Source: Crossiella sp. SN42
GTDB taxonomy: Bacteria; Actinomycetota; Actinomycetes; Mycobacteriales; Pseudonocardiaceae
Direction of reading: 5' to 3'
Assembly (NCBI RefSeq): GCF_023897065.1
Contig: NZ_JAMHIV010000004.1
Span: forward strand, 62,001 to 126,000
Length of the DNA stretch: 64,000 nt
Shown: piece by piece, positions 44,308 to 52,237 of the stretch
Numbering within the stretch: position 1 is the first letter of the stretch
Layout of the letters: each line of letters begins with the position of its first letter
Program-made: the position numbers and the translations under genes
The notes under the pieces: generated by a model
What the model was told of the DNA's origin: nothing
The model's input: the letters and a program-made list of their open reading frames with translations, nothing else
The model's database searches: none

Positions 44308-44748
44308 GCTGAGGCAGGCGATGACGCCTTCGTGCCCGTTGCAGCAGGCCGGGCCCGTCCAGTTCGACCACTCATCCGCTTCGCTGGCCGCCCAGCGGGC
44401 ATCTTGTTCGCCCTGTTCGTTGAGGATGTTGTAGCTGCCATGTCGCCTATGCAGCGACTGGACAGCATCCTCTGGGAGCAGATGCTTAACGGGGTCGCTC
44501 CGTTCATCGCCGCAGAAAACCAGCGCATGATCTGCTGTCGGAGAGCCCGCCGGACCACCTGCACTGGCTGAACAAGAACCGTGCCTGGCCGCTCTGGGGG
44601 CTGTTCTTCCCCCTGCAAGTCCACGTCGTTATCACCACTGTTCATCACCACTTTGGCGCGCCAGAGCCACATCGGCGACGGCCACGAGACCGCCCGAAGG
44701 ACCTGTGCTGTCGTTGCACCGCAACACGCTTGGGGCGACGGTGAGCAG
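44308..44748. other. region between PPC gene and CRISPR array, no supported gene
   Basis: Open frames on both strands lack family signatures. The stretch follows the trailer (oldest) end of the CRISPR array, whose repeats degenerate from 44854 downwards; I found no further repeat copies to the left of 44749. Confidence 0.4.
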
Positions 44749-45789
44749 GTTGTGATCCTCACGGGCCCACAGGGCCGGTGCTGTCTTGGTCGGGGTCGTC
44801 ACTCTCGACCGTCACGGTGTTGCGATCCTCACCGGTCCCGAGGGCCGGTGCTGTCACGAGCTGCTGCACCCCCGTGACGCTCCTAGGCACGTTGCGATCC
44901 TCACCGGCCTGGGAAGGCCGGTGCTGTCCTCATCGGCGGGGAGGTTCTTGCAGCCGTTGAGGCTGTTGCGATCCTCACCGGCCCGGGAAGGCCGGTGCTG
45001 TGCCCGCGCCACCGCCACCAGGGTGCTCAACGAACTGTTGCGATCCTCACTGGCAGGGAAGGCCGGTGCTGTGGTGGTGCTCGGCATCAGGCAACAGGTC
45101 CCAGTTGTTGCGATCCTCACCGGCCCGGGAAGGCCGGTGCTGTCTGCTGGCGGCATCTTCCAGGCCGACGTAGAACCGGTTGCGATCCTCACCGGCCAGG
45201 GAAGGCCGGTGCTGTACTGGCTGCCCAGCGTCTCGGACGCGGCGCGCATGTTGCGATCCTCACCGGCCTGGGAAGGCCAGTGCTGTCGGGCCGAGCTGGC
45301 GCAGGCCGTGGCCGCGTTCGAGTTGCGATCCTCACCGGTCTGGGAAGGCCGGTGCTGTTTGCAGCGCCAGGGCGTTACCGCCGACTTCATGATGTTGCGA
45401 TCCTCACCGGCCTGGGAAGGCCGGTGCTGTCTGGTCGCCGTGCCCGATCTGCCCGCAGACCGGGAGTTGCGATCCTCACCGGTCTGGGAAGGCCGGTGCT
45501 GTTGCGGTGGCCAGCCGCGGTCAGGCCCGCGCCCGGAAGTTGCGATCCTCACCGGTCTGGGAAGGCCGGTGCTGTCCGCGGAGGCAGTGGCCAGCGCGGG
45601 CCCGGCGGTGTTGCGATCCTCACCGGTCTGGGAAGGCCGGTGCTGTTGGCCGGGCAGGTCGCGAACCCGAGTAGCTACAAGTTGCGATCCTCACCGGCCC
45701 GGGAAGGCCGGTGCTGTCTCGCGACCCTGGTCGCGGCCGAGCAGATGCTCAAGTTGCGATCCTCACCGGCCCGCGAAGGCCGGTGCTGT
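44749..45789 (-). CRISPR. type I-C CRISPR array, 15 repeats and 14 spacers
   Basis: Repeats of 37 bp, plus-strand form starting GTTGCGATCCTCACCGG and ending GGCCGGTGCTGT; repeat starts at 44749, 44819, 44891, 44965, 45037, 45107, 45179, 45250, 45322, 45394, 45466, 45539, 45610, 45681 and 45753. Spacers are 34-37 bp. Read on the minus strand the repeat has a 9-bp hairpin (CACCGGCCT/AGGCCGGTG, loop TCCC) and an 11-nt 3' part AGGATCGCAAC, as in type I-C where Cas5 cuts at the hairpin base. The first two copies on the low-coordinate side are 36 bp and mutated, so that is the trailer; the cas-proximal side is the leader side. Variation in the hairpin (TCT, CCT, CCC) is mostly in the loop. Confidence 0.97.
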
Positions 45790-45939
45790 GCGATGATGCG
45801 GATGCTGCGTGCGCGAGATCGCCGCGCACGGTGTCCACAGTGGACTCGAAGTAGCCTTCTTGGTGGATCAGAACAGCCTGCCGGGGCAGTAGGCGTGGTG
45901 CTCGATCGCCGAGATCGGGATGCTGAGCTCGGCAGGCAT
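45790..45939 (-). pseudogene. cas4: cas4 remnant, frameshifted and cut off by the CRISPR array
   Basis: From ATG 45939 the frame reads ISAIEHHAYCP, the start of a Cas4 nuclease with its first cluster Cys. One base is missing in a C run at about 45886; the next frame continues QAVLIHQEGYFESTVDTVRG, then DLAH. The sequence stops being Cas4 exactly where the first CRISPR repeat begins (45789). Cas4 is normally about 200 residues and is followed by cas1 and cas2; all of these, and the usual leader, are absent. Its start lies 16 bp after the cas7 stop, the normal I-C position. Confidence 0.82.
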
Positions 45940-45955
45940 GTCCCGCGTTTCCGGT

Positions 45956-46846
45956 TCAAACACCAAGGCGGGTGAGAGTGATGCCGTGGGGCATAGCGTT
46001 TTCGTTAACGTCAACCTGGTAGTCGGTGAACGCGCGCGGTGGGGTGCGTGGGTCGTTGCGCCGGACTTCGACGCGATCGAAGAGCTTGTGTGCTGGGGCG
46101 GAACCGAAGGCGTCGGCGTGGCTGAAGATGTAGATGCCGCGAGTGGTCATCTGGCCTCGGGTGGCGGAGCGGTCGTGGTCAAACATCATCTCCAGCGTGC
46201 GGAAGAGCAGTTCGAGGTCGCGGGAGCCGACCCCGGTTTGCTTGCCGCGGTTGGCGGAGTAGGCGATGGTGGTCTTGTACAGTCCATAGGGGACGGTCCA
46301 TTTTCCGCCCATCTCGGTGCTTTCGCCCTTGTCGATGTCCTCTTGTTTGGTCTGGGTGACCCGGGTGATCGCGTGGTCCATCGGCAGGATCGGGTCGATG
46401 CTGCGCGCGATGCCGACTTGGAGGGGGCCGTGGATTTGACCGAGTGCGCTGGTCTTGCCGACCGAGAGCACTCCGCCGAACAAGCGGATGTCGACGTAGC
46501 GTTCGCACAGCCAGGCCCGTGCGGGTTCGGCGGCTTTCCTGGTGACGGACTTGTCCAGCTTGAGGCCGTGGGCGGCGTAGGAGGCTTCCAGGCGCGTGTT
46601 GAGTGCGTGGCCGGCCTCAACGAATATCCCGTACCCTTCCTCGCCTTCCGCGGCCAGCGCGAGGGTGTCGCGGATCTTGCGTTTGATCGCCACGTCGCTG
46701 ACCAGGCCCTGGTTGGATTCATCGTCCATGCGGGGCCGGTTGCCGGCGTCGGGATCACCGTTGGGGTTGCCGTCGATGACGTCGAAGAGCAGGACGATGT
46801 CATGGCGGACGGTGGGGTCGAGGTGGGTGGCGATGCTGCTGGTCAT
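45956..46846 (-). CDS. cas7: type I-C Cascade backbone protein Cas7 (Csd2)
   Basis: 296 residues from ATG 46846. Cas7c features: HDIVLLFDVIDGNPNGDPDA start, MDDESNQGLVSDVAIKRKIR, VRLFGG-type block (DIRLFGGVLSV) and GLYKTTIAYSAN. Seven copies normally line the crRNA in the I-C complex. Last intact gene of the cas5-cas8c-cas7 operon. Confidence 0.93.
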   Translation of the reverse strand: MTSSIATHLDPTVRHDIVLLFDVIDGNPNGDPDAGNRPRMDDESNQGLVSDVAIKRKIRDTLALAAEGEEGYGIFVEAGHALNTRLEASYAAHGLKLDKSVTRKAAEPARAWLCERYVDIRLFGGVLSVGKTSALGQIHGPLQVGIARSIDPILPMDHAITRVTQTKQEDIDKGESTEMGGKWTVPYGLYKTTIAYSANRGKQTGVGSRDLELLFRTLEMMFDHDRSATRGQMTTRGIYIFSHADAFGSAPAHKLFDRVEVRRNDPRTPPRAFTDYQVDVNENAMPHGITLTRLGV

Positions 46847-46918
46847 CGGAGCGGTGTCTCCTTGTGCGGGAGGTCTGGTCGAGGTGTCGTCCGGGCGAAT
46901 GCCCGGAGGTCGTGCCAC

Positions 46919-48715
46919 TCAGGCCGGGTCGGCGTCGGTGAGCGGGTCTTTGGCCTCTGTGCGACGGGCCCGCTGGTGGTGGTAGCCGAGCATGAACAGG
47001 GCCTGCTGTTCCAGGTTGGCGGTGAGCAGGATGTTGTCGTTGACGTCGTAGAGCTCGAACAGTTCGTTGAGTTTCTTGTCGTAGAAGCTCGCCAGGGCTG
47101 GTTTGGTGCGACGAAGTTTGCGCAGCCATGCCACGGCATCGCGGCGTCCGGCTACCAAGGCGGCGCGCGGGTTGGCTGAAGCGCTGGCGAAGAACCGGTC
47201 GCCGTAGGTGGTGTTCACCTGGCCGCTGGTCTTCTTCTCCCCCGCGGCCGCACGATCGGTTTGCTGAGGTGTGCGGGGGCGGTGGGCCTCGTACTGGATT
47301 CGTTCGAGCAGGGCGAAGGTTCGGCCGGCCAGGTAGCCGGGTTGGGTGTTGGTCTCGTCGAGTCCAGGCATGGGGATGCCTTCCAAGTAGGGCAGGCGGT
47401 TCAGAGACAGGCGGATCAGCGCGGCGCGGGTCTCATCGAGGTGTCCGTCAGTGCGAATGCGGTGGAGTAGGTGCACCAAGAGCGAGCCGGGCACGGGCGT
47501 GCCGTGGATGGCCGCGCGCAGCAGGTCCCGTTGCACCGTATGGGGTCGGGCTGCGTTCTTGGCGTCGAACTCGGCATACCGCTTGGTCTTGGTGATCCAG
47601 CGCCCTGTGGCCAGAGCGAGGGTGCGGATACTCGGCCGCGGTAGGTCGGAGTCCCAGCGGCTGGTGATTTCCAGGTCGGTGAACCAGCGGCTGATCCGCT
47701 CGTCCAGGTCGGCCAGGGGCATGTCGATCCAGTCACGCACCATGACGCGGGCGATGTTGCCGCCGACGGTCAGGGAGTAGAACTTCTCGGTGTTGACACG
47801 GCGGTCAGGTTTTTGTCCTGCGTGGACGGATTGGATCAGCTTGGTGATCCGTGCGGGGTCGGGTTTGAGCAGGAGTCGCGCAGAGACCTCTGTGTCGGGG
47901 TTGGTGGCCCACCAGGCGATGCGGCTGTCCTGTCCGCCATAGCTGGCGCTGTCCGGGGAGGAGAGCACACCGAGCAGGCCGGAGTTGAGCGCATCGCCAC
48001 AGCTCATGCAGATCGGGGTGTGGCCGAGTCCGGTGGTCAGGTCGTAGCCGAAGACTCGTTCGTTGACCGAGATCAGCGCGGCGTCATTGGTGGCGCCGGG
48101 GATCCAGCGGGCGGGGATCTTGCCGGGCACGGTGTCCAGCAGCGGCCCATGTTGGCCGCACACCAGGCACAGGCCGGTGTGGCCGCCGCCTTTGCGGCGC
48201 CCGACCTCCTCGGTCCAGAACGGCACGACCGAGGGTGCCTGGTAGGCCGGCTCGCCCGCGACGGTGATCAGGATTCCGTCCTTGGCCGCGACCGGTTCCT
48301 CCGGCAGGACCTGGTTGATCTGGCCGCGCTGGAAGAAGGCCGCGATCGCGGCGGGGACGGGATCGTGCTGTGCGTGCGGGCTGTGCGCCCAGCGCTGGGT
48401 CAGCTCGACGAAGGCGTGGTGGCACTTGGCCACTCGCTCCGGTTTGGTGGTCTCGTCACCGTGGCCCAGGACGTACTGGGCGTCGTCGGCGGCCAGGTTC
48501 GCGGCCACCCCGACGGTGCGCACCGCGGTGGGCACGGTGTGCAGCTGCCCGCGGTTGCCGCGAGTGTCATCGGCGGATTGCAACGGCAGCAACGGTGCGG
48601 CGGCCTGTCCGTCGAGAGTGAGTTCCAGGCGCCACCGGAACTCCCGGCCGCGGTGGAACGGGCGTGCGGCCGGTGAGCGGCGCTGGGCATACTCGACCAG
48701 TCGTTGGATGAGCAT
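46919..48715 (-). CDS. cas8c: type I-C large subunit Cas8c (Csd1)
   Basis: 598 residues from ATG 48715, overlapping the cas5 stop (TAATG). N-terminus MLIQRLVEYAQRR is typical of Csd1/Cas8c; two CxxC pairs (CLVCGQHG, CMSCGDALN) could bind zinc. Cas8c recognises the PAM and, through an internal start in other systems, also yields the Cas11c small subunit; a similar internal start here cannot be verified. Length is normal. Confidence 0.93.
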   Translation of the reverse strand: MLIQRLVEYAQRRSPAARPFHRGREFRWRLELTLDGQAAAPLLPLQSADDTRGNRGQLHTVPTAVRTVGVAANLAADDAQYVLGHGDETTKPERVAKCHHAFVELTQRWAHSPHAQHDPVPAAIAAFFQRGQINQVLPEEPVAAKDGILITVAGEPAYQAPSVVPFWTEEVGRRKGGGHTGLCLVCGQHGPLLDTVPGKIPARWIPGATNDAALISVNERVFGYDLTTGLGHTPICMSCGDALNSGLLGVLSSPDSASYGGQDSRIAWWATNPDTEVSARLLLKPDPARITKLIQSVHAGQKPDRRVNTEKFYSLTVGGNIARVMVRDWIDMPLADLDERISRWFTDLEITSRWDSDLPRPSIRTLALATGRWITKTKRYAEFDAKNAARPHTVQRDLLRAAIHGTPVPGSLLVHLLHRIRTDGHLDETRAALIRLSLNRLPYLEGIPMPGLDETNTQPGYLAGRTFALLERIQYEAHRPRTPQQTDRAAAGEKKTSGQVNTTYGDRFFASASANPRAALVAGRRDAVAWLRKLRRTKPALASFYDKKLNELFELYDVNDNILLTANLEQQALFMLGYHHQRARRTEAKDPLTDADPA

Positions 48716-49395
48716 TAAACCGCTCCGACGGGTTGCGGTTGCACGGGAATGCCTTCGAGCGGGATGTCGATCACGCCGTTGCTCATGCGGGCGTGAAACC
48801 AGGTGAAGGACAACGGCTCGGTGGAGCGGTCCACGGTGTGCAGCATCAGGCCGAGGTCGGCGCTGAGGTCGATCGGCGGGTCCGGGGTGGGGTCGCCGAA
48901 ATAGGCGGTGAACTCCTTGGTGCCCAGGTAGGGCTGGGAGAAGCACCTTCCGGCGGTGACGCGGCGGCGGAACTGATCACGGTAGGCCGCGACCGGTTTG
49001 GTGGCGCGGTCGCGGAGTTCGACCTGGGCGTGGATGCGGTAGGCCACGTCCTTGAGGCAGACCGCGTTGCGCTGGACGCGGTGGGCGGCGGTGTCGATTT
49101 TCCTGCGCCCGGTGACGGCGTCGGCCAGGCTGGGCAGGTCGATGGTTTCGTTGCGGCGGAAGGTGAACTGGCGGATCGGTTTGAGCATCTCGATGCAGCT
49201 GACGCGCCAGGCCATCTCGGGCTTCCAGAAGATCGATTCCAGGATGCCGGCGGCAGCTGACGGCGTGGGCACGTCGTAGCTCATCCGTTCGACCTTCAAT
49301 TCCGGGCGGGTGAACAGCGCCCCCTCGCCCCATACCTGCACCACGACCGGTGGCAGGCCCCCTGGCCTGGCCGCACCAGTGAACTCTGATCTCAT
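48715..49395 (-). CDS. cas5c: type I-C Cas5 (Cas5c), crRNA-processing nuclease
   Basis: 226 residues from ATG 49395. RAMP-type fold: VQVWGEGALFTRPELKVER, SYDVPTPSAAAGILESIFWK, CFSQPYLGTKEF. In type I-C, which lacks Cas6, Cas5c cuts the repeat RNA. First gene of the effector operon. A TTC-flanked target for the repeat-like RNA at 49522-49624 lies just upstream of the ATG. Confidence 0.93.
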   Translation of the reverse strand: MRSEFTGAARPGGLPPVVVQVWGEGALFTRPELKVERMSYDVPTPSAAAGILESIFWKPEMAWRVSCIEMLKPIRQFTFRRNETIDLPSLADAVTGRRKIDTAAHRVQRNAVCLKDVAYRIHAQVELRDRATKPVAAYRDQFRRRVTAGRCFSQPYLGTKEFTAYFGDPTPDPPIDLSADLGLMLHTVDRSTEPLSFTWFHARMSNGVIDIPLEGIPVQPQPVGAV

Positions 49396-49404
49396 GAGTC
49401 CATG

Positions 49405-49424
49405 TTCATCTGATTGGTAGTTGT
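49405..49424 (+). promoter_or_regulatory. PAM-flanked partial target site upstream of cas5
   Basis: TTC at 49405-49407 is the type I-C PAM. The next 17 bases, ATCTGATTGGTAGTTGT (49408-49424), match the pseudo-spacer ATCTGTGTGGTCGTTGT in 14 positions, with mismatches at 6, 7 and 12. Every sixth base is flipped out in type I R-loops, so two of the three differences are harmless. Pairing ends at position 17, which favours binding without full R-loop and Cas3 cutting. The site ends 10 bp before the cas5 start codon (49395). Confidence 0.7.
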
Positions 49425-49521
49425 TTCGAAGCTGATCGGCGTGGTTTCACTCGACCGAGAGGCTGGGCTACCTGAACGGCCTAGTGGGGCGTGAGCGGGC
49501 TTCGCGGCGAGCAGATCGCCC

Positions 49522-49624
49522 AGCCGGGAGCGGACGTCGAACCGCCCCCGGCTGACCTGCGGTGATCTCTACAACGACCACACAGATGTTGCGATCCTCG
49601 GCAGGCATGACTGCCAGCGCTGCG
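49522..49624 (-). ncRNA. crRNA-like guide (CreR-like), single degenerate repeat and pseudo-spacer
   Basis: On the minus strand 49624-49588 resembles the array repeat: CAGC near the 5' side, a changed but still self-complementary stem (GGCAG/CTGCC) and an identical 12-base 3' end GAGGATCGCAAC. A 34-base pseudo-spacer (49587-49554) follows, the same length as array spacers, then a strong hairpin (arms 49553-49542 and 49533-49522, 11 of 12 pairs) in place of a second repeat. It lies between the cas3 stop and cas5 start. Its 5' part pairs with the TTC-flanked site before cas5, so I infer a Cascade-bound repressor RNA. A promoter was not identified. Confidence 0.65.
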
Positions 49625-49700
49625 GACATCTTGACTGCCGCAGCTCGTGTCGGCCACGTCAGTGCCTGACACCTCACACCTACTGGCCTTTTGCCCATCG

Positions 49701-51971
49701 CTAGATCACAAAACCCTCGCCGAAGCTTTCCTCGTCCAGGCCAAGGTCTGGGTCGTAGGCGCCACGCCACTCGTAGAGGTCACCGATGACGGGGCTCAGC
49801 AGCGGGACGATGTCCGCGCGGCTGGCCAGGTCGGCGCGAAGGGACACAGTCCAGGGCTGAAGCTGGCGGAGGGTGTCCCGCTGGGGACGGCCGGGGTCGC
49901 GAAGGTCATCGAGGCGTTGTCTCACAGTCTCGCTGGACTTCCAGCTGGTGATGGCGACGCTGATGCTGTCGTCGTCGATCATGCGGAAGGCCAGGGATCG
50001 ATCTCGGCGCGCACTCCGGCCGGCGTCCTTCTCCGGGCCATCGGCGACTGCGAGGAAGTCCAAGTGCCTTCGGTTGCGCTGGATGACCTGTCCGCGGGGT
50101 GCGGCAGACCAGTCAGCTCCGGCTTCGTTGTCCAACCCCAGGGTGAGGTAGAGGTCCTCGAAGTAGCGCTGGAGGGCCTCCAAGTTGTCCGGATCGGCCA
50201 GCGGCGCCCTTCCGAAATGGAGCCGGGTGCTGCCGGTTGCGGTCCGGTAGTCCCGGGGCTGCCCTCCCTCGACAGGGTCGAAGATCACTACCCGCCCGCG
50301 GCGGAGATGCCCTTCCCGGTTGGCGCGGCCGGCGGCCTGCAACAGGGACTCAGCCGGTGCCAACGCCCGGAACACCACCGGGAAATCGACGTCTACTCCT
50401 GCTTCCACGAGCGGTGTGGCCACCACGGTCACCGGCTTTCCCGTCTTCAGGCGCCGGGTCGTCTTCGCCAACACCTCCAGCCGGTGGCGTGGGCACATCC
50501 GGGTCGACAGGTGCAGCGGTGTCTGGCCGGTGGCTTTGTGGAGCATGTGGAAGACGGTGCGGGCGTCGCGGACGGTGTTGACCACGACCAGGGACTGCTG
50601 CTCGACCGCGACGGCGGCGACCACGTCGGCCCAGGACGGCTTGGGATCCAGCCACCACCGGAAGTCCACCCGCTGCGTCTGGGCGAACATCCGGGCCGGT
50701 TCCCGGACCACCTCGTGGATCTGTAGATCGTCCCAGACGGAGAGGCGTTCGAAGGTCGGCTGGGTTGCCGAGGTGAGCAGCACGGTGAGGCCGAAGTGCT
50801 CGACCAAGGTGCGCAGCGCGCTCAGGATCGGCAGCAGCAACGGCTTCGGCAGGGCTTGGACCTCGTCGAGCACCAGCACGGCGTTGCTCAGCCGGTGCAG
50901 CTTGCGCATCCGAGAGGGTTTGCGGGCGAACAGGGAGTCGAACAACTGCACGGTGGTGGTCACCACGAACGGGGCGTCCCAGTTCTCCGCAGCCAGCTTG
51001 GCCCACCGCTCGCCCGCATCGGCCTGTTCGGCCGTCAGTTCCTTGCCGCTCTTCTCGAAGGACACCGAGGAGTGGTGCTCCAGCACGACCGGGTCGTCCT
51101 CGTCGTCGAGCAGGGATCGGTAGACCGCCGCGTTCTGCTCGGTGACCGTCATGAAGGGCACCGCGACGATCACCCGGGACTTGCCGTGCCGGGCCGCATG
51201 GTGCAGGGCGAAGGCCCCGCTGGCGAGGGTCTTGCCCGAACCGGTGGGAGCAGCCATCCGGTAGACACCGGGTTTCCCTTGTGCTGCCGCGACTGCGGCG
51301 TCGTAGAGCTCGGCGCGCACCCCTGCCACCGGCGAGGCGGCCTGGCCCGCGATCATCTCCGCACGGTTGCGGTCGAAGCGCTCCAGCAGCACCTTCCAGT
51401 CCGCTGACGGAGCGATCTGCGGGCCGCCCAGACCGCGCCGGTACGCGCCGGTGTCGAGATGATCGGCATCGACCAGCGCGGAGAACACCATCCGGATGCC
51501 CATCTCCAGCAACAGCTCCGCACCAGGGGCCAACCACGGCTCGGGGATCAGGAACGGGCCGTTGAGGACCTTGGCTGCTTCGGGCACCTCGGCGAGGAAC
51601 CGCCGCGTGGTCTCGGGTTCATCCGGCTGCTCGGCCCGCTCAACCTTGTCCTGGATAGTGGTGCAGTCGCGGAGACCACCGTGGTGACCCAGAACCGCCA
51701 TCGCGCACACGTCCGCGGTTTGGGCCAGCAGCCGGGCACCGAGTTCCTTATGGTCGATGCCCACCGGCCTGGACGTGCCGGCCACCAAAGCCAGCTTGGC
51801 CTGCCACGCCCGCCCAGCCTTGCCCGCGTCATGGAACAGCCCCAGCGCGTAGGCCAGGTCGCCTGCGCAGAAGCCCTCAGCGAAGCACCTGGCCCACCGC
51901 GCGGTTGAACGGAGATGGTCGGCCAGGCCATGCCAGCCACTACCCGGACTATCCGGGCTATGCGCCCACAT
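49701..51971 (-). CDS. cas3: Cas3 nuclease-helicase, type I-C
   Basis: 756 residues; TAGGAGAAG precedes ATG 51971. N-terminal HD nuclease (LFHDAGKAGRAW; GHHGGLRD), then SF2 helicase: Walker A APTGSGKTLASGAF, LVLDEVQALPKPLLLP (DEVQ box), LLTSATQPTF, and QAAGRANREG. Complete length for Cas3. It is transcribed apart from cas5-8-7: 305 bp separate its stop from the cas5 start, and that gap holds the crRNA-like element. Confidence 0.93.
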   Translation of the reverse strand: MWAHSPDSPGSGWHGLADHLRSTARWARCFAEGFCAGDLAYALGLFHDAGKAGRAWQAKLALVAGTSRPVGIDHKELGARLLAQTADVCAMAVLGHHGGLRDCTTIQDKVERAEQPDEPETTRRFLAEVPEAAKVLNGPFLIPEPWLAPGAELLLEMGIRMVFSALVDADHLDTGAYRRGLGGPQIAPSADWKVLLERFDRNRAEMIAGQAASPVAGVRAELYDAAVAAAQGKPGVYRMAAPTGSGKTLASGAFALHHAARHGKSRVIVAVPFMTVTEQNAAVYRSLLDDEDDPVVLEHHSSVSFEKSGKELTAEQADAGERWAKLAAENWDAPFVVTTTVQLFDSLFARKPSRMRKLHRLSNAVLVLDEVQALPKPLLLPILSALRTLVEHFGLTVLLTSATQPTFERLSVWDDLQIHEVVREPARMFAQTQRVDFRWWLDPKPSWADVVAAVAVEQQSLVVVNTVRDARTVFHMLHKATGQTPLHLSTRMCPRHRLEVLAKTTRRLKTGKPVTVVATPLVEAGVDVDFPVVFRALAPAESLLQAAGRANREGHLRRGRVVIFDPVEGGQPRDYRTATGSTRLHFGRAPLADPDNLEALQRYFEDLYLTLGLDNEAGADWSAAPRGQVIQRNRRHLDFLAVADGPEKDAGRSARRDRSLAFRMIDDDSISVAITSWKSSETVRQRLDDLRDPGRPQRDTLRQLQPWTVSLRADLASRADIVPLLSPVIGDLYEWRGAYDPDLGLDEESFGEGFVI

Positions 51972-52054: not shown

Positions 52055-52237
52055 GCTGCCATCTCACCAGTCCTGGACGGCCGGTGCTTGTCCGGGAGTC
52101 TGATGGTCCGGAGGGATCGGATCTGGAGTTGCGATCCGCACCGGTTCTGGAGAGCCGGTGCTGTGACTGGCACGCGGTCGCCTCGCGGCGCTGGCTGGAC
52201 GTTGCGATCCTCACTAGTTCCGAAGGGCCGGTGCGGG
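52055..52237 (-). CRISPR. degenerate CRISPR mini-array upstream of cas3
   Basis: Three repeat-like 37-bp blocks at 52055-52091, 52128-52164 and 52201-52237, separated by two 36-bp spacers. The middle one keeps GTTGCGATCC and the GCCGGTGCTGT end; the outer two are more mutated. Orientation equals that of the main array. It begins 83 bp upstream of the cas3 ATG. Either a relic of an older array on the other flank or a second set of regulatory guides; no TTC-flanked match to its spacers was found near cas3 or cas5. Confidence 0.75.

Follow-up and report, generated by a model that had tools for sequence, protein, structure and literature searches.

The type I-C CRISPR locus described here raises the question of why a single repeat-like block lies between cas3 and cas5, within the 305 bases that separate the cas3 stop from the cas5 ATG. 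A sequence-only reading of the window (the whole 64-kb stretch of DNA that was analysed) proposed that this block begins a crRNA-like RNA, whose guide would direct Cascade to a partly matching site before cas5 and thereby repress its own operon. The current analysis favours this answer: a CreR-type guide that makes the I-C Cascade repress cas5-cas8-cas7 is the best explanation found, at a probability of roughly 0.8.

The window encodes a type I-C effector set (cas3, cas5d, cas8c and cas7), with all genes on the minus strand and a CRISPR array that starts 166 nt past cas7 (Table 1). The crRNA strand of the array was assigned from the handle and is the cas strand. No cas4-cas1-cas2 block was found between cas7 and the array (45790-45955), unlike annotated type I-C plasmid loci (e.g. 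L246 and L247), in which these genes follow cas7. The sole Cas1 match of the genome is in a separate type III-like CRISPR locus outside the window (L274, G000:C23:36000-54000). This locus also encodes a 340-aa Cas10-like protein, a 760-aa TIGR03986 RAMP protein and a 1316-aa multi-RAMP fusion with matches to Csx7, Cmr4, Csm3, Csx10 and Cmr6, all below cut-off, and is possibly an unusual type III variant. Upstream of cas3 in the window, three degenerate repeats on the minus strand (52063-52237) look like a decayed array stub.

Table 1. Positions of the cas genes, the array, the crRNA-like element and its target in the window.
Feature	Position	Strand	Remarks
cas3	49701..51971	-	Cas3_HD, DEAD, Cas3-like_C_2
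cas5	48715..49395	-	PF09704; Cas5d, predicted processing nuclease
cas8c (Csd1)	46919..48721	-	PF09709; start codon provisional
cas7 (Csd2)	45956..46849	-	PF05107; start codon provisional
CRISPR array	44748..45789	-	slightly varied 37-nt repeats
Lone repeat-like block of the crRNA-like gene	49588..49624	-	exact handle; stem 49616-49611 with 49604-49599
crRNA 5' handle GAGGATCGCAAC	49588..49599	-	identical to array handle
Pseudo-spacer (guide)	49555..49587	-	target match limited to first 17 nt
3' hairpin, 13 bp	49521..49554	-	where the next repeat would start; fold z -3.7 for 49515-49630
PAM TTC	49405..49407	+	
Partial protospacer	49408..49424	+	14/17 matches; 13-29 bp upstream of the cas5 ATG (A at 49395)

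The lone block, which reads CGCAGCGCTGGCAGTCATGCCTGCCGAGGATCGCAAC on the minus strand, had been described as keeping the exact 12-base handle of the array repeat together with a compensated hairpin, and sequence comparison bears out both points: the 6-bp stem (TGGCAG/CTGCCG) is retained, with a sequence unlike that of the array stem. A scan of the whole 9.7-Mb genome found 16 copies of the exact handle, namely 14 in the array, one in the decayed stub and one in the lone repeat. The exact handle is confined to the type I-C CRISPR locus, and the scan gave no standalone copy elsewhere in the genome besides the stub upstream of cas3. The second hairpin that was said to follow the pseudo-spacer is present, while the pseudo-spacer itself is about 33 nt long and not 34 nt, because that hairpin begins at 49554. 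The hairpin is probably either the 3' end of the RNA or a repeat mimic. At gathering thresholds, Rfam recognised only four tRNAs within the 64-kb window. In a free RNA fold the pseudo-spacer is partly self-paired, which is a point against its use as a guide.

The match of this guide to the DNA before cas5 was found exactly as first described, including the mismatches at positions 6, 7 and 12, the preceding TTC and the distance to the cas5 start. TTC is given as a type I-C PAM in the extracts of PMC8406640. The window has 1388 TTC sites, and the target gives the best match of them all, the runner-up having 11/17. When positions 6 and 12 were excluded, leaving 15 positions, none of 20,000 shuffled spacers reached the observed score of 14 (shuffle maximum 13), and neither did any of 5,000 dinucleotide-shuffled gaps (maximum 11). 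Across the 9.7-Mb genome, a mismatch-free copy of the pattern of 14 matched bases is present only in the target and in the element itself, and 33 places fit with up to two mismatches.

For the comparison with relatives, actinomycete I-C loci were collected by Cas5 searches, and removal of 6 duplicates from 93 left 87 loci, among which near relatives are mutually non-independent. Genomes G061, G745 and G319, with a weak or split cas5 match, were left out; L028, with a misplaced cas3 match, was kept in the shuffle and PAM tests and dropped from the pairing profile and from the hairpin and stem tests. Four genomes listed as the same genus or species gave no cas5 match, and the sample therefore holds no within-genus comparison locus. 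By their cas3-cas5 gap, 48 loci have a short one (14-62 nt) and 37, including L028, a large one of at least 134 nt; two loci have another gene order.

Co-variation was scored on the cas strand by a scan anchored on the handle, with p values from shuffled spacers, and 27 elements in the 87 loci were obtained at p <= 0.001. This level was reached by 26 of the 36 handles outside array context, despite spacers that differ from locus to locus. The ten lone handles above it comprise weak matches in the sibling loci L071, L196 and L199 (p 0.05-0.11) and those of L031, L069 (two), L168, L191, L205 and L208 (p 0.23-0.87). Handles in array context, which served as an inside control, gave one value at p <= 0.001 (L177) and otherwise values of 0.046 to 1. 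A seed-anchored scan of both strands, in which matches with at least five handle mismatches (mostly array repeats) were set aside, added L023, L107, L168, L179, L185 and L205.

With both scans, a pair was found in the gap of 25 of the 37 large-gap loci, four of them weak (L071, L196, L199 and L205), and none was found in the other 12 (L018, L027, L028, L100, L172, L180, L187, L188, L189, L200, L207 and L209). Among the 48 short-gap loci, 11 carry a TTC pair upstream of cas3 (L068, L102, L105, L169, L173, L177, L178, L201, L212, L215 and L217), L208 carries a pair with TTT instead of TTC, and neither scan detected a pair in 36. Where it is present, the element comes first in the effector unit whichever the layout, since the pairs sit in the large gaps, upstream of cas5, or else upstream of cas3 in some gap-less loci.

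The sequence-only reading had called for such a comparison of the cas3-cas5 gap, and had named relatives with a repeat-like block and no conserved TTC-flanked match as an outcome that would speak against it. The outcome favours the reading, as the TTC-flanked match co-varies with the lone repeat in the majority of cases given above. Because many relatives keep the arrangement with different yet matching sequences, the element very likely serves the immune system as a switch by which it regulates itself.

The PAM was examined separately by taking the best match of each handle with any PAM allowed. The score cut was reached by 29 of 40 lone handles, 25 of these 29 with TTC, as against 19 of 160 array-context handles, only one of the 19 with TTC. 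This PAM specificity, like the shuffle tests and the co-variation, is contrary to what would be expected of a repeat that merely decayed from a former array and matches the DNA before cas5 by chance. Other degenerate repeats do occur in this locus (the stub and the slightly varied array) and would suit such an origin. Two handles of the stub were scanned as a contrast, and their spacers had no TTC-flanked match nearby (p 0.28 and 0.98). A chance match and a functionless decayed repeat were both rejected on the basis of the shuffles, the genome scan and the co-variation, and an origin by decay alone is considered highly improbable.

The pattern of pairing was compiled for 28 pairs, whose targets had been chosen on positions 1-5 and 7-11 behind TTC (L028 omitted). 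Matches were found in 27-28 pairs at positions 1-5, in 6 at position 6, in 20-27 at positions 7-11, in 7 at position 12, in 13-19 at positions 13-17, in 7 at position 18 and in 3-11 at positions 19-35, so that little more than background remains at positions 6, 12 and 18-35. An odd feature, which counts against the reading, is position 36, matched in 15 of the 28 pairs. When targets were chosen on positions 7-11 and 13-17 instead (22 pairs), positions 1-5 matched in 20-22 and position 6 in 3. Cascade holds its guide in 5-nt segments and leaves each sixth base unpaired. The profile is the 5+1 periodicity of Cascade over three 5-nt segments, and plain antisense pairing is disfavoured because every sixth base is left free as in Cascade.

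The 3' hairpin is also common in the relatives, with a mean z of -3.3 and values below -2 in 20 of 28 elements, compared with 7 of 62 controls. The repeat stem gave a mean score of 5.9 versus 3.5 at random places, a weak test because 12% of the control values reach the observed median.

The position of the target is less uniform. In the window it is found directly before cas5, some 130 nt downstream of the guide, but in most actinomycete pairs it lies upstream of the element, often beside a -10-like box and not at cas5, which speaks against the simple reading. A TANNNT box is present within 22 nt after the PAM in 15 of 21 opposite-strand targets, compared with 7 of 126 other TTC sites, and in 14 of the 15 boxed targets the start of the repeat follows the PAM at a distance of 14-49 nt. 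In the boxed loci, to judge from this spacing, Cascade would cover the -35 region of the promoter that makes the guide, and of the cas genes as well if there is read-through. The target is downstream of the element in the window, L167 and L023, and no TANNNT box is present within 22 nt after the PAM of the window, nor in L167. This variation in pair geometry among relatives is a further point against the reading, as are the many loci in which neither scan detected a pair, the ten lone handles with p above 0.001 and the want of a comparison locus in the genus.

These boxed targets, and the strong hairpin that follows the guide in most elements, would also agree with an RNA that limits itself by repressing its own promoter, any effect on the cas genes being secondary and due to read-through. 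The target of the window, downstream of the guide and at cas5, is not where such an RNA would need it, and a purely self-directed RNA would have no need to lead the effector unit, as the elements do in both layouts. An RNA of this kind is therefore regarded as quite unlikely, and repression of the effector genes remains the preferred reading.

Some further features of the pairs were observed. Two tandem TTC-flanked matches to one guide, like paired operators, are present in L169, L102, L167 and L201. An inverted repeat surrounds the target in L025 and L196, e.g. GGGTGCTTGAGCCG...CGGCTCAAGCACCC in L196. The element is on the strand opposite to cas in L107, L179, L185, L039, L043, L045, L050, L051 and L220, and the guide gene can therefore be transcribed away from the operon.

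In six gaps of Micromonosporaceae, a small ORF that appears membrane-like by eye diverges from the target. Such ORFs antisense to cas measure 67-73 aa in L073 (67 aa), L210 and L030, and lie inside longer ORFs in L196, L199 and L204. They raise the question of whether the guide acts like the antitoxin CreA, i.e. mainly represses a nearby toxin or cargo gene and so makes the cell dependent on Cascade, for which CreTA and CrePA are published precedents (PMC12737573, as far as the extracts go). The search for toxin ORFs covered up to four small ORFs per gap, in gaps of 240-1300 nt, and an RNA toxin that has no ORF would escape it. Between target and element in the window, none of the small ORFs listed was a convincing toxin; the gap holds no ORF of the kind seen in Micromonosporaceae, and the target stands directly before cas5 rather than at a toxin promoter, as it would in CreTA or CrePA. 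Moreover, L203 has a 13/15 match without a small ORF, the PAM-repeat distance is only 31-37 nt in seven Micromonosporaceae loci, which leaves little room for a toxin gene, and none of the three small ORFs tested had a Pfam family above cut-off (one desaturase match, E 0.21). An antitoxin function of the guide is thus unlikely as a general explanation, while in Micromonosporaceae the membrane-like ORF that diverges from the target makes such a role conceivable.

More distant relatives were represented by 60 I-C loci outside the class of the window, scanned with handle motifs that partly follow a general consensus of I-C repeats. They comprise 26 of the 27 loci of one distant set (L058 omitted), 22 of a second set (omitted were L244, L245 and, as repeats of the window and G103, L236 and L239) and 12 of 52 plasmid records. 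A pair was found in 8 of the 60, compared with 0.65 pairs expected from shuffled spacers. Five of the eight (L039, L045, L050, L051 and L220) resemble the window in having their target 3-24 nt upstream of where cas5 is estimated to start. By eye, the sequence just upstream of the target in L039 and L045 shows a promoter-like TTGACA together with a -10-like box.

A consensus scan of 49300-49760 in the window found no sigma-70-like promoter or terminator. The target there has no promoter consensus, and the guide could derive from the cas3 transcript; both points would allow Cascade to activate or only time transcription, or to act as a roadblock to read-through from cas3, without repressing a cas5 promoter. 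Published guides of this kind repress, and the promoter-like sequences of L039 and L045 are in line with repression, so that a role of this other kind seems improbable.

The preferred reading, that the guide represses the effector genes, draws its support from the co-variation and the pairing pattern; repression itself belongs to the proposed part of the circuit. Alongside the observed parts, the non-random match, the cross-species co-variation and the Cascade-like pairing, the transcription, processing and binding of the RNA, the sign of regulation and the absence of cleavage are proposed to be as follows. A CreR-type RNA gene, located between cas3 and cas5 and encoded on the same strand as the cas genes, would give a transcript that folds the repeat stem. 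Cas5d would cut at the base of this stem and leave a handle of 11-12 nt, a guide of about 33 nt and the 3' hairpin; Cas5 is named as the processing enzyme of type I-C in the extracts of PMC10651486. Type I-C Cascade loaded with this guide would use the three 5-nt segments 1-5, 7-11 (with one mismatch) and 13-17 to bind the TTC-flanked site 49405-49424, where the cas5-cas8-cas7 unit has its 5' end. As pairing ends at position 17, Cascade would block transcription without licensing Cas3; this last step rests on pairing of at most 17 nt, by analogy with CreA and CreR. Effector synthesis would in this way depend on the effector level already reached, and the block would be lifted by abundant crRNA or by anti-CRISPR proteins.

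A wider scheme can be put forward tentatively, and is more doubtful than the reading for the window. In it, an RNA-guided loop would be common to type I-C systems of several phyla, the guide would form the head of the effector transcript, and guide-loaded Cascade would shut the promoter of both guide and effector. In Micromonosporaceae the operator would also control the divergent small membrane protein, which would then be a CRISPR-repressed effector gene.

Among CRISPR subtypes, type I-C is common and its effector minimal. If the proposal is correct, a self-repressing natural guide would explain how type I-C is kept low and re-armed, and I-C Cascade could act as a natural repressor with 10-15 paired bases. 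The 27 elements obtained by the shuffle test offer natural seed/target pairs for probing the threshold between binding and Cas3 attack, and engineering with native actinomycete I-C loci would have to allow for the guide.

Related systems are known from other CRISPR types. The tracr-L of type II-A (Workman 2021) is reportedly a natural guide that autoregulates cas expression, acting with Cas9 and tracrRNA in class 2, and Shmakov et al. 2023 are said to have described isolated repeats, mostly of type I, that partly match cas promoters. No cas-regulating RNA of type I-C was found among the top hits of a literature search that left aside the contents of Shmakov 2023 and Liu 2023.

According to the extracts of PMC10651486, viruses and plasmids carry Racrs, which mimic a repeat and inhibit Cas proteins. 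The RNA anti-CRISPRs of phages, including RacrIC1, resemble the present element as solitary type I-C repeat mimics. They differ in that a Racr is a virus- or plasmid-encoded repeat that needs no target, whereas the element of the window is flanked by cas3 and cas5 and its guide matches a target site. The CreA of type I-B requires positions 1-5 and 7-11 and has a TTC PAM, with positions 6 and 12 free, as described in the sections available of PMC8501985. The same sections show that CreA of the Haloarcula CreTA system (type I-B) shares with the element the TTC PAM, the pairing at 1-5 and 7-11 and the free positions 6 and 12. In H. hispanica, CreA has one degenerate repeat and a T-rich terminator at its 3' end (PMC8501985), counted here as a likeness; unlike CreTA, the target in the window has no visible toxin gene.

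The closest resemblance is to CreR, the cas-regulating RNAs published for types I-B, I-E and V-A (PMC13131331, PMC12737573), whose autorepression is lifted by anti-CRISPR proteins or by the crRNA supply according to the extracts of PMC12737573, PMC13131331 and PMC12948488. On the terms of these extracts, both are crRNA-like RNAs of a cas system with a partial match to the promoter region of their own operon and, in the present case, predicted autorepression. The sequence traits that mark a CreR were found here: a repeat-like sequence that carries the handle of the system itself and lies in the cas locus but apart from the array; a PAM-flanked match shortly before cas5, in a stretch whose identity as a promoter is putative, the consensus scan being negative; pairing that is confined to segments near the PAM and leaves positions 6 and 12 free, both in the 28 pairs and in the window; and guide-target co-variation among relatives. 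In contrast to the CreR of those extracts, the element belongs to type I-C and its processing is predicted to be by Cas5d instead of Cas6, the pairing in I-C often extends to position 17, and many actinomycete targets are a promoter-like site just upstream of the RNA. The CreR kind of regulator is already known, and its breadth in type I-C and the predicted processing by Cas5d are possibly the new points.
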